From assembly GCA_017649925.1 (NCBI GenBank), contig JAGCFX010000015.1:1-34067 (forward strand): a stretch of 34,067 bases of DNA, written 5' to 3'. Below, in pieces: positions 871 through 31,117 of the stretch. The notes under the pieces are model-generated. The model was given only the letters and a program-made list of their open reading frames with translations, made no database searches and was not told the origin of the DNA. A program made the position numbers and the translations under genes. Source of the stretch: Paludibacteraceae bacterium. GTDB taxonomy: Bacteria > Bacteroidota > Bacteroidia > Bacteroidales > Paludibacteraceae. Each line of letters starts with the position of its first letter. Within the stretch, counting starts at the first letter, position 1.

Positions 871-899
871 AGTGACTCACATTGTGGGTCACTTTTTTT
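871..899 (+). terminator. Rho-independent terminator after BspA-like gene
   Basis: A 10-bp stem, AGTGACTCAC against GTGGGTCACT (one G-T pair), closes a 3-nt loop and runs into seven T. It lies 38 bp after the stop codon and marks the left edge of the intergenic module that follows. Confidence 0.88.
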
Positions 900-972
900 G
901 CCCGTCACACGCCTACTTGTGTTTTTTTTCACTTGGTCCTTTTCATTACGACAGATGCATGCTCTCTCGGTC

Positions 973-1164
973 CGTTGCCGTGTCGTTGCCGTGTCGTTAT
1001 CGACTCGTTGTCGTGTCGTTGTCGTGTTTGGCTCGAGAAAGTTACGAGACTGAACCACAAGATACCCATAACATACCCATAGGATACCCATAGGATACTT
1101 GCCCCGTTTTTGCACAAACCTCGCTTCTCCTGTATATATACTATGTATATATACACTTTTCGTC
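973..1164 (+). repeat. Dispersed intergenic module, copy 1
   Basis: Three parts in order. Bases 973-1027 are five 11-bp units of the type CGTTGCCGTGT. Bases 1045-1101 are a 57-bp core containing repeated ATACCCATA words. Bases 1131-1157 hold a near-palindrome of two TGTATATATAC-like arms. The core and palindrome recur in inverted orientation at 30931-31043 with 56 of 57 and 27 of 27 identical bases. No credible coding frame is present. In both copies the module fills the gap between a terminator and the promoter of the next gene. Confidence 0.9.
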
Positions 1165-1189
1165 GTTTTTTATAAAAATTGAAATAAAC

Positions 1190-1220
1190 TTGCATATCTC
1201 AAAAAAAAGCAGTACTTTTG
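1190..1220 (+). promoter_or_regulatory. Bacteroidales-type promoter (TTGCATAT / TACTTTTG)
   Basis: TTGCATAT begins at 1190 and TACTTTTG at 1213, giving TTGC-N19-TAnnTTTG. The expected start of transcription is near 1225, 20 bases before the ATG at 1246. This argues against the GTG at 1225 as start codon. Confidence 0.8.
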
Positions 1221-1245: not shown

Positions 1246-2403
1246 ATGAAAAAAGATTTTTGGGATAACTTTCAGTCGCATAAAGTGGTGCGGATCTTTA
1301 AGATTATTTCCGAATCGGCAGTGTTCGCGTTGTTACTGTCGCTGATACTTTTCGGCGTGGAGATGTTCAACGAGATGGAGGACTCCCGCGAGATGACGAA
1401 GAACCTGCTGGAGATCCAGAACTCGCTTTCCACACGTTATCTGGGTGAGTTCCCGAATTTCGTGCCGGACATCAATCAGTTGTACTCAGAGGCCAAAGCC
1501 GGCGATTCAATAGTGGTGCTGGAAGATGTGCTTTTCTACGGCATCACGAGTGCTCCGGGCGAGTTCTACGAGGCAACGACGAAGTTACTGGATCTGGCCG
1601 CCGCGGGCAGTCATGTGATGATAGCATACTATCGTCCTCACGGGCTGGCGTATGACTTCATGATGCAGGAGTGGTTGCTATCCCAAGAACAATACAATCA
1701 TTTCCGCGACACGATGACGCTGTTTGAGCGCCGCCAGCATGCCTACAAAGAGGAGATGCGCGCGTTGATGGATTCGTGCCGCACGAACGAAGTGAACAAG
1801 ACAGAGACGCGTCGTCTGATGCGCGCGCTGATGGACAAGAGTTTCGGCGACGTCATCGGCAAGCAGCGTGACGGCAAGCCTGTCATTGCCTATAGCAGCG
1901 ACAACGAGCAAGTGAAGGCGATGTTCCTCGAGCGTTATTTCGCCAAGACGCGCGAAGAAGACCGTGCGGCATTCAAAGCGATGATCGCCAAATATCGCTA
2001 TCCGACCACCCGCGCGCTGCCCACCGACATCTCCACGCGTACCGAACTGGAGACGGCAGAGATGTGCCACCAGATGGATTCCGTACGTATTCAGTACCTT
2101 GGTCGCGAAGGCGCATCGATAGACAAGCCGACGTACGCCGATTTTGTGAATATGTTCGCTGACATGACCCAAGTGATGGAGCGTACTTTCCAGCGCTATC
2201 CGTCCATTCAGTTAGTGGCGATTGATGATTTCCTGTCTGTTCGCAGTTGGCTCGTATGCTCAAAGAAAAACGAAGGGAAAGCCATCATGGCCTTCCCCAG
2301 TCGTTATGCTTCCAGCGAGATAGGATTCTTCACTACCGACGCTTCGACGCGCGAGTACATCAAGACGATGGAGCGCGGAATATTGGTCAATTTTGCTCCT
2401 TAA
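1246..2403 (+). CDS. Membrane-anchored protein of unknown function
   Basis: The protein has 385 residues from the ATG at 1246. A GTG at 1225 is also in frame but sits at the predicted transcription start. A short basic N-terminus is followed by one hydrophobic helix at about residues 17-36 (SAVFALLLSLILFGVEMF), so it is probably a single-pass inner-membrane protein with a large soluble domain. The first part of that domain has alternating beta and alpha character (GDSIVVLEDVLFYG, then AAAGSHVMIAYYRP). A charged helical middle follows, and the end looks like alpha/beta again. I see no catalytic motif and in particular no HKD motif, despite some resemblance to a PLD-like layout. It converges on the S9 peptidase gene with a 17-bp overlap. 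I do not recognise the family. Confidence 0.75.
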   Translation: MKKDFWDNFQSHKVVRIFKIISESAVFALLLSLILFGVEMFNEMEDSREMTKNLLEIQNSLSTRYLGEFPNFVPDINQLYSEAKAGDSIVVLEDVLFYGITSAPGEFYEATTKLLDLAAAGSHVMIAYYRPHGLAYDFMMQEWLLSQEQYNHFRDTMTLFERRQHAYKEEMRALMDSCRTNEVNKTETRRLMRALMDKSFGDVIGKQRDGKPVIAYSSDNEQVKAMFLERYFAKTREEDRAAFKAMIAKYRYPTTRALPTDISTRTELETAEMCHQMDSVRIQYLGREGASIDKPTYADFVNMFADMTQVMERTFQRYPSIQLVAIDDFLSVRSWLVCSKKNEGKAIMAFPSRYASSEIGFFTTDASTREYIKTMERGILVNFAP

Positions 2404-21341: not shown

Positions 21342-21414
21342 GAATCAGTAGCTCAGCAGGTAGAGCACATCCCTTTTAAGGATGGGGTCCTGGGTTCGAG
21401 CCCCAGCTGGTTCA
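21342..21414 (+). tRNA. trnK: tRNA-Lys (anticodon UUU)
   Basis: A full cloverleaf folds by eye. The acceptor GAATCAG pairs with CTGGTTC (one G-T pair). The D arm GCTC/GAGC, the anticodon stem CATCC/GGATG with loop CTTTTAA, and the T arm CTGGG/CCCAG with loop TTCGAGC are all present. The anticodon TTT reads lysine. The discriminator is A and the CCA end is not encoded (ACAA follows). Confidence 0.97.
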
Positions 21415-29914: not shown

Positions 29915-30847
29915 TTACCATTTACCGCCTGCACCGCCACCGGATGACGAACCTCCGCCCCAGGAACCTCCGCTATGACTACGCCTTCCGGATGACGAGC
30001 CGGACGAATGGCTTAGCTTCGGAATTTTATAGGCCACGACGAATATATTGCCGCATTTCTTGCACTTATAGGTGCGTTCTCCGTTGCCTCCGTGGCCATA
30101 GGTGGCGGCCGTTAGCACTTTGTCGGCAATCTTGTGGGCTCTGCGCTTCTTGCATTTCGGACATTTGCGTGTTTCTGTCGGCCAAGCATACCAGATGAGA
30201 GTAAAAAAACCGGCATATACTCCTATAACACCGATAGAGCAAAGTAACGCAAGCCATACGTCTGATTTTCCTCCGCCCTCCGGGGCATACTTGCCGCGAT
30301 TGGTAACGGATGTCATATTGAGCAATTCCTCCGGCGCAGTACCATCGGTACAGATCTCATAGATGCGCAGTGCCCCAAGACACAAACCCTCGCCATAATG
30401 GCCTGCGCGGAAAGCGGGCGTCATGTCGTCACGGATAATCTGCGAGCAACGCGCGTCGGTCAATATGCCTTCTATACCTGTGCCGGTCATGATACGGATG
30501 TCGTGGCTGTCAAGCACAAAAAGGACCAGTACGCCGGTGTTCTTCCCCCGAGCGCCTATTCCCCAAGTCTGGAAAAGTTCGAAGGAGAAATCGAAAGCAT
30601 CTGCGTCCCCGATGGACCGCAAAGCAACCACACACAACTCCACATCCGTAGCGTCCTCCAACATCCGCGCACAGCGGTTAAGGAACACCACATCGCTGTC
30701 ATTAAGCAACGTATCGGGATCTGCCACATAGAACGCTTGACCTTGATTTTTCGGACTGGGAACAGATTTCGGAGTATATACCGCAGCCATGGTCAGCGTA
30801 CTGAACAAAGCCGCAAGGGACAAAACAATTTTTCGGATTGCTTTCAT
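29915..30847 (-). CDS. TPM-domain membrane protein with zinc ribbon
   Basis: Length is 310 residues. A signal peptide (to about residue 21) precedes the TPM domain at about 24-175 (NQGQAFYVADPDTLLND, then VLVLFVLDSHDIRIMTGTGIEG). One transmembrane helix spans about 197-222. The cytoplasmic part has CPKC (229, 232) and CKKC (262, 265), a zinc ribbon, and then a Gly/Ser tail (GGSWGGGSSSGGGAGGKW), as is common in TPM proteins of YgcG type. The family is linked to envelope or photosystem protein turnover; the role here is unknown. It has its own promoter, and the dispersed intergenic module copy 2 lies upstream. Confidence 0.88.
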   Translation of the reverse strand: MKAIRKIVLSLAALFSTLTMAAVYTPKSVPSPKNQGQAFYVADPDTLLNDSDVVFLNRCARMLEDATDVELCVVALRSIGDADAFDFSFELFQTWGIGARGKNTGVLVLFVLDSHDIRIMTGTGIEGILTDARCSQIIRDDMTPAFRAGHYGEGLCLGALRIYEICTDGTAPEELLNMTSVTNRGKYAPEGGGKSDVWLALLCSIGVIGVYAGFFTLIWYAWPTETRKCPKCKKRRAHKIADKVLTAATYGHGGNGERTYKCKKCGNIFVVAYKIPKLSHSSGSSSGRRSHSGGSWGGGSSSGGGAGGKW

Positions 30848-30869: not shown

Positions 30870-30900
30870 CAAAAGTAGTGAAAAAAAATGACATATGCAA
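30870..30900 (-). promoter_or_regulatory. Promoter of the TPM gene
   Basis: On the minus strand TTGCATAT (30900-30893) and TACTTTTG (30877-30870), same spacing as the others. It adjoins module copy 2 just as the promoter at 1190 adjoins copy 1. Confidence 0.83.
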
Positions 30901-30930: not shown

Positions 30931-31095
30931 AGTGTATATATACATAGTATATATACAGTATAAGTGATGATTGTTCGAAAAAGGACCAAGTATCCTATGG
31001 GTATCCTATGGATATGTTATGGGTATCTTGTGGTTCAGTCTCGATAATGACTCGATAATGGTTCGATAATGACTCGATATTGACTCGATATTGAC
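30931..31095 (-). repeat. Dispersed intergenic module, copy 2 (inverted)
   Basis: Read on the minus strand: five 11-bp units (31095-31041; plus strand TCGATAATGAC and TCGATATTGAC), the 57-bp core (31043-30987) with ATACCCATA words, about 30 bp of spacer, and the TGTATATATAC palindrome (30957-30931). The core has one mismatch to copy 1, while the 11-bp units differ strongly from those of copy 1. No gene is encoded. Confidence 0.9.
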
Positions 31096-31117
31096 TCGAA
31101 GATGGGGAGGTGTCGGA

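Follow-up and report, generated by a model that had tools for sequence, protein, structure and literature searches.

A dispersed module of 11-bp repeats and a palindrome beside promoters in rumen Paludibacteraceae: a candidate protein-binding control element

An intergenic module present twice in the window (the whole stretch of DNA analysed, 34,067 nucleotides from a Paludibacteraceae bacterium) is a member of a dispersed family in rumen Paludibacteraceae MAGs and is not a segmental duplication. The module consists, in order, of four 11-bp direct repeats (CCNNANGATNN), a spacer, a 25-bp dyad and a T-run; in many cases an ordinary -33/-7 promoter comes next. The arrangement of these parts suggests a composite protein-binding control element, a reading for which the chances appear evenly balanced.

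Results

Two copies of the module in the window

The first-pass annotation had described one module at two distant loci. Both copies were found, in opposite orientations and with their parts in equal order (Table 1). A core of 57 bp, at 1045-1101 (+) in copy 1 and 31043-30987 (-) in copy 2, is identical at 56 positions, and a 27-mer bearing the palindrome (1130-1156, +; 30958-30932, -) is identical throughout. The element AATAAACTTGCATAT begins at 1183 (+) and 30907 (-), and the upstream genes of both copies end in hairpin-plus-T terminators, as judged by eye. Some of the parts needed redefinition. The arrays reported as five 11-bp units are present, but further 11-bp units lie inside the core; near-identical as it is, the core consists mostly of four more such units, in a register shared with the outer array. 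A promoter does lie where a promoter start had been reported, but the element seen there is the -33 part of an ordinary promoter, TTG...TAnnTTTG. In copy 1, the distance from dyad centre to -7 is 69, and the offset from dyad end to TTG is 34.

The similarity of copy 1 to other loci is far beyond chance, because a 361-bp query from it gives other matches in its own genome with E-values down to 7.5e-73 and the reversed-pattern controls for palindrome and core gave 0. Segmental duplication was rejected: the likeness of the two copies stops at the module and its promoter, and they are not the only two, since many more copies exist in the genome and palindromes occur in related genomes too. The window also contains a 69-bp tandem repeat of 4.4 copies at 49-352, within a BspA-type leucine-rich repeat gene (TRF, Pfam), and a tRNA gene at 21342-21414, the sole Rfam match in the window at gathering score.

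Table 1. Parts of the two module copies and the genes downstream of them
Feature	Position	Strand	Basis
Copy 1 outer variable 11-bp tandem array (CGTTGTCGTGT, 5.0 units)	973..1027	+	TRF, sequence
Copy 1 inner array, four 11-bp units CCACAAGATAC CCATAACATAC CCATAGGATAC CCATAGGATAC	1055..1098	+	sequence, family consensus
Copy 1 spacer, near-fixed length, poorly conserved letters, about 3 helical turns	1099..1130	+	
Copy 1 25-bp dyad TGTATATATAC-TAT-GTATATATACA	1131..1155	+	
Copy 1 T-run CTTTTCG, marking the promoter-facing side	1156..1162	+	
Copy 1 ordinary -33/-7 promoter, TTG 1190-1192, TACTTTTG 1213-1220	1190..1220	+	consensus
Gene downstream of copy 1, 385 aa, membrane-protein-like (by eye), without Pfam family	1246..2403	+	
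Copy 2 outer 11-bp tandem array, 5.5 units, TATCGAGTCAT type	31040..31099	-	TRF
Copy 2 inner array, four 11-bp units	30990..31033	-	
Copy 2 spacer	30958..30989	-	sequence
Copy 2 25-bp dyad, identical to copy 1 dyad	30933..30957	-	
Copy 2 -33/-7 promoter, TTG 30900-30898, TACTTTTG 30877-30870, offset 32	30870..30900	-	consensus
Gene downstream of copy 2, TPM-domain protein (PF04536)	29915..30847	-	Pfam

Size and distribution of the family

Of 45 matches to the 361-bp query in the own genome, several represent complete modules, and many weaker ones span the promoter part only. The dyad occurs there 12 times at up to 3 mismatches, 10 times perfectly (reversed control 0), and a three-unit array pattern has 13 matches (reversed control 1). 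With a 161-bp query, matches were obtained in the own genome and in 18 of 36 congeners; of 24 genomes from other families, one matched, over no more than 27 bp. Among 61 sampled genomes of the genus, own included, 29 contain TATATATACNNNGTATATATA (control hits 0) and 6 carry 10 to 16 dyads each. A scan of GTDB genomes for dyads with a TAY centre returned at least 119 stretches. Among the 80 stretch titles listed, 70 are Bacteroidia, mostly named Bacteroidales or Paludibacteraceae and many from the rumen; the 10 that are not were left out of later counts, and 39 further stretches were kept without a title screen. The module adjoins unrelated genes in different genomes. The literature searched, with most subscription journals outside its scope, held no paper on the module recognisable by title and abstract start. 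Two congeners that lack the dyad also match the three-unit array pattern, G010 at 56 sites, more than any other of the 61 genomes, and G074 at 24; among genomes with the dyad, G066 leads with 26.

The number of dyads per genome and the different adjoining genes also fit a MITE-like non-autonomous mobile element inserting upstream of promoters, in which case the regulatory look would come from targeted insertion or later host use. A transposon-like origin is possible, but this reading as a whole is unlikely, if still to be taken seriously. No inverted repeat is apparent at the ends of the array-spacer-dyad-T-run consensus, which are unlike each other, though the true ends of the module are not defined because weak conservation runs on past unit 1 (C in 67 of 95 modules at -10). 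No target duplication was seen among orthologues too diverged to place the ends, and no larger transposase-bearing copy was noticed by eye among the nearest neighbour genes, whose clustering gave five recurrent clusters, none transposase-like by eye. A genome-wide search found the Y1 transposase (PF01797) in 14 of 29 palindrome genomes and 8 of 32 others; as the own genome (G000) and 15 of the 29 gave no match, it was rejected as a required partner. REP/RAYT systems comprise palindromic repeats dispersed between genes. The module resembles them in its dispersed intergenic palindromes, and differs in its direct-repeat array and in the lack of a Y1 transposase match in its own genome.

A precedent for a mobile element is BrickBuilt of P. 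gingivalis, likewise a dispersed intergenic element of Bacteroidales with internal tandem repeats; this MITE/minisatellite has 19 copies in one strain and is linked with promoter activity (PMC4596501). It differs in its 23-bp units, its inverted-repeat ends and its reported occurrence in P. gingivalis strains, and its abstract mentions neither a 25-bp dyad nor helical phasing (PMC4596501).

Anatomy of the module

An 11-bp array, defined as at least 16 of 22 matches at lag 11, is found on one side of the dyad in 115 of 136 distinct dyads. Unit composition was read from 95 modules whose arrays score at least 25 of 36 against four CCATAGGAT units, a set thus selected by similarity to CCATAGGAT. 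Within it, C1, C2, A5, A8 and T9 of the unit hardly vary. Units 1, 3 and 4 have G at position 7 in 92 to 94 of the 95 modules; unit 2 differs at this position (G 39, C 38, A 15). The spacer, of about three helical turns, is poorly conserved in its letters, yet the distance from the last GAT to the dyad is 30-35 bp in 86 of the 95 modules, the rest being 43-47 (6), 56 (1) and 22-23 (2). Arrays built from other unit families, such as GCACTTATCAC and CCTCCCCGCAC, stand before dyads of this kind too. A second dyad context occurs at four loci (L108, L114, L138 and L199), where the dyad lies between CACGG(G/A) and AGGTGTGGTGGGATACG or a sequence close to it.

The dyad centre is mostly TAY/RTA. The inner nine pairs were set by the search pattern, which leaves pairs 10 and 11 as the test of symmetry; 104 and 122 of the 136 modules, respectively, are complementary there, with A-T, G-C and T-A all occurring and G.T in 0 of 272 cells. 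The centre reads TACTAYG on one strand in 132 of the 136 modules and exactly TACTACG in 37. This brings to mind the double-strand origins of rolling-circle replication in the pMV158 family, which combine a hairpin containing the nick sequence TACTACG with tandem 11-bp repeats, three or four in number (PMC9943647, PMC3387028). Four 11-bp repeats near a hairpin with such a centre make an architecture strikingly similar in form, and the modules could in principle be chromosomal remnants, or replicating non-autonomous elements, with tandem Rep-binding repeats. We regard this as very unlikely. The module differs from such an origin in being chromosomal, multi-copy and promoter-phased, the phasing not being expected of an origin. 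Rep_OBD (PF01719) matched in 0 of 61 genomes searched and was rejected as a required partner, and the 161-bp query had no plasmid or phage match in blastn at E 0.01. The centre also occurs in both orientations relative to the array (83:49), and most loci had been fetched with a TAY centre in the search, an open search finding other centres.

Placement and neighbouring genes

The module had been placed after the end of one gene and before the promoter of the next, in the direction of transcription. This holds as a bias and not as a rule. With both neighbours resolved within 600 bp in 84 of the 95 modules, their orientations are ++ in 41, -+ in 23, +- in 12 and -- in 8 (++ vs -- p = 2e-6; -+ vs +- p = 0.09). 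Within 200 bp of the T-run side, a consensus promoter points away from the module in 55 of 95 cases and back in 1; 23 of the 95 have one on the array side. Extended to 300 bp and 136 modules, the counts are 85 with a promoter pointing away and 4 with one pointing back, and 51 are without a recognised promoter. Some modules in the ybeY-locus context also lack one on the T-run side.

Seen from the promoter-facing side, the consensus is an AU hairpin followed by CTTTTTG, the one feature here that favours action at the RNA level, as a terminator or other structured RNA. Such action is nonetheless the least probable of the readings weighed, and scarcely to be expected. A structured RNA is not supported because the module lies upstream of the promoter, its spacer is poorly conserved, and neither the window's modules nor those of six loci matched an Rfam 15 covariance model at gathering score. 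The module lies between divergent genes in 23 of 84 cases, and the dyad is free of G.T at pairs 10-11. An intrinsic terminator should follow a gene in the direction of its transcription, and was rejected because 31 of 84 modules have an array-side gene oriented the opposite way.

Genes downstream of promoter-near modules share no obvious function and look unrelated (by eye, with Pfam for five proteins), and a coherent regulon was rejected on this mostly visual basis. Directly beside seven modules, as right-hand neighbour, a recurrent GKxNKK protein family is encoded (L110, L113, L123, L128, L174, L190 and L213), whose C-terminus we take to be acetyltransferase-like. At another locus (L002), a gene with a TonB-receptor plug domain (Pfam) lies downstream of the module. 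It is preceded by letters that, in our view, resemble a THI box; these gave no Rfam match at gathering score.

Helical spacing between dyad and promoter

The distances between dyad and promoter fall on a comb, which is real although its strength is uncertain. These distances rest on consensus promoter calls in draft MAGs, and the sequence clusters used for de-duplication are not a phylogeny. Among 35 clusters with a promoter within 60 bp, dyad end to TTG measures 20-23 bp in 20, 31-35 bp in 8 and 24-30 bp in none; one cluster listed at 4 reflects a false TTG inside the T-run and is about 32 on inspection. Over 300 bp, 77 clustered pairs give a best period of 11.4 bp for dyad centre to -7 (bootstrap 11.3-11.5; R 0.62). 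Sixty of the 77 distances lie within 2 bp of the fitted comb, against about 27 for random positions, and 0 of 4000 jittered sets matched it over periods of 10-12. Under stricter de-duplication, the pairs beyond 90 bp keep an R of about 0.5 at 11.3 (n 42-47, at most 1/4000); the near set weakens as clusters widen, to 34/4000 (n 18) and then 763/4000 (n 11, not significant). Array-side promoters, which were not de-duplicated, have a weaker phase (n 51, R 0.41, 11/4000).

Among the controls, upstream stop codons have no phase (n=291, R=0.09), and T-tracts reach R 0.19 (109/2000). A-tracts upstream of promoters of the genus are phased more weakly than the dyads at 11.4 bp (R=0.30, n=113, 2/2000), and overlapping A/T words in sampled stretches give R 0.2-0.4, mostly near 10.5 bp; part of the comb may therefore be a general property of these promoters. 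Terminator hairpins, with 10 cases only, were uninformative. A hold-out of 100 fresh loci supplied 98 dyads. Setting aside 15 that lacked an array and 30 repeats left 53 new modules, of which 37 have a promoter. These 37 pairs give a projection of 0.44 (0/10000) on the preset comb (57 + 11.4k); the 27 that resemble neither the first set nor one another give 0.33 (14/10000), and those of the 27 beyond 90 bp give 0.31 (n 15, 185/10000). The free best period of this small hold-out is not 11.4. Fresh loci thus support the preset comb, more weakly than the first set.

The period of 11.4 bp is near the in vivo helical repeat: lac loops gave fitted values of 11.60 and 11.08 bp in wild-type data and 10.95 without HU (PMC1762422). 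The module is like the lac repressor loops in a dependence on distance with the helical repeat (PMC1762422), and differs in being a natural comb across many loci and genomes, read from sequence and without a known protein.

Orthologous promoters with and without the module

Orthologues of three genes were read in the best 30 loci per search, plus the carrier L170 for nadE, and a dyad was counted if no more than 330 bp from the start. A promoter of the kind described above is present in 24 of the 30 best loci for rfbC (dyad in 1), in 28 of 31 for nadE (dyad in 1) and in 15 of the 30 best for TPM (dyad in 2), where distant hits may be paralogues. The -7-to-start distances of carriers (rfbC 34, nadE 31, TPM 30 and 76) fall inside the range of non-carriers. 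Since relatives without the module have a promoter at the same place, the module was most likely gained upstream of pre-existing promoters at these three genes. The rarity of the dyad among orthologues is also what a mobile element would give. At the TPM locus of a second genome, G035, the array is of a different type and lies at a different distance.

Period-11 tandem repeats in the genus

Non-coding tandem repeats were counted at lags 6 to 33, with at least 26 of 33 matches required and low complexity removed. In 391 kb of the own genome, 5 were found at lag 11 and 0 at every other lag. Lag 11 also leads in 393 kb of 20 congeners, with 11 repeats (no more than 4 at any other lag), and gives 0 in 257 kb of 20 genomes of other families. 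In called-coding stretches, the commonest lag is 7 (3 in the own genome, 9 in congeners) and lag 11 gives 1 and 4. Intergenic 11-bp arrays of many unit sequences, also without a nearby dyad, were seen at L282:1960-2033, L285:12414-12502, L303:8105-8170, L308:3874-3942 and elsewhere. By species, the ybeY locus has the four-unit module, another array and dyad, an array alone, or almost no intergenic DNA.

This dominance of period 11, together with the many unit sequences and the arrays without a palindrome, would be expected if the module were a neutral by-product of a mutational habit of the genus that makes 11-bp arrays, with the palindrome as a common neighbour. We consider this improbable. 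The inner array is made up of four units, the second of them special, and keeps a near-invariant CC..A..AT, though in modules chosen by similarity to CCATAGGAT; the distance from array to dyad is fixed, the orientation is biased, and the period of the promoter comb is 11.4 and not 11.0 bp.

Uniformity of arrays within genomes

Identities were compared among 63 modules under 18 genome labels, a hand-picked part of the loci. Within and between genomes, respectively, they are 0.93 and 0.76 for arrays, 0.65 and 0.51 for spacers, 0.59 and 0.55 for the 30 bp after the dyad, and 0.72 and 0.50 for the 30 bp before the array, the between-genome values being possibly raised by G handles that duplicate named-record genomes. 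In all four segments, 0 of 500 label permutations reached the observed difference. Five copies in one genome have an array identity of 0.96 and a spacer identity of 0.49. High array identity beside drifted spacers argues against recent copying as the only cause. For a mobile element, a genome-specific unit sequence is a point in favour; spacers and right flanks so much less identical than the arrays within a genome are not what recent copies would show.

Uniform arrays with drifted spacers suggest upkeep in trans. Patchy gene conversion could be an alternative source, both of this uniformity and of a pattern at ybeY: in the G030 copy, positions 6-7 of units 2 and 4 (AC, AG) match the letters of G000/G003, and three units have G030's own T at position 10 (one locus, one genome).

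Discussion

Three readings had been proposed at the outset, a mobile non-autonomous element, a structured RNA and a site for a DNA-binding protein. The last is the best supported, because the geometry is fixed, the dyad symmetry is kept by compensatory changes without G.T, and the promoters are helically phased. Dispersal over evolutionary time is supported as well, since the module adjoins unrelated genes across genomes and few of the orthologous promoters read carry it; a transposon mechanism is no more than possible, and a structured RNA is not supported. Phasing of promoters by whole DNA turns suggests that the module is probably a docking site for gene-control proteins. That proteins bind, that expression is affected, and whether this means activation or repression, we infer from letters and positions.

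In the proposed mechanism, one protein would probably coat the four 11-bp direct repeats, one subunit per helical turn and on a single face. A second protein, or the same one, would bind the 25-bp dyad, three turns beyond the repeats, as a dimer. The whole assembly would face RNA polymerase at the promoter, and so would have to lie on the right face of the helix. Contact would be direct where about 57 or 68 bp separate the -7 element from a dyad centre upstream of it, and at greater distances the assembly would act through a DNA loop. An 11-bp direct-repeat spacing upstream of promoters is also known from OmpR/PhoB operators; PhoP of M. tuberculosis, of this family, binds cooperatively to a directly repeated 7-bp motif whose copies are 4 bp apart (PMC4832192). 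The module differs in having four units with evolving letters plus a separate dyad, and in being known from DNA sequence.

More speculatively, the family may form a roaming enhancer-like system: a dispersed bipartite element at unrelated promoters in a rumen Bacteroidales clade, set at whole in vivo helical turns from -7 out to nearly 300 bp, with array letters rewritten genome-wide as a putative trans-acting recogniser changes specificity. We hold this extended view as tentative and, on balance, doubtful. If right, natural genomes record the transcription-relevant in vivo helical repeat (11.4 bp) at dozens of loci in many genomes without experiment, and the family offers a tractable case of regulatory sites dispersing to new genes and co-evolving with their reader. 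Even in a mobile element, settling at fixed helical offsets upstream of promoters would be unusual.

Parts of the module also occur in viral sequences. The 21-bp palindrome alone was found in 61 viral stretches; the best one-sided score at lag 11 is 17 of 22, in two of them, and the others have at most 16. The array pattern was found in 18 stretches of viral contigs. Several of 12 inspected viral palindromes lie between what we take to be a primase/helicase-like gene and a RusA-like resolvase gene, and the site perhaps marks a replication origin. In five viral, phage-like contigs (L221, L226, L243, L255 and L273), this palindrome has a TACTACGTA centre, and in some of them short iterated words lie alongside.
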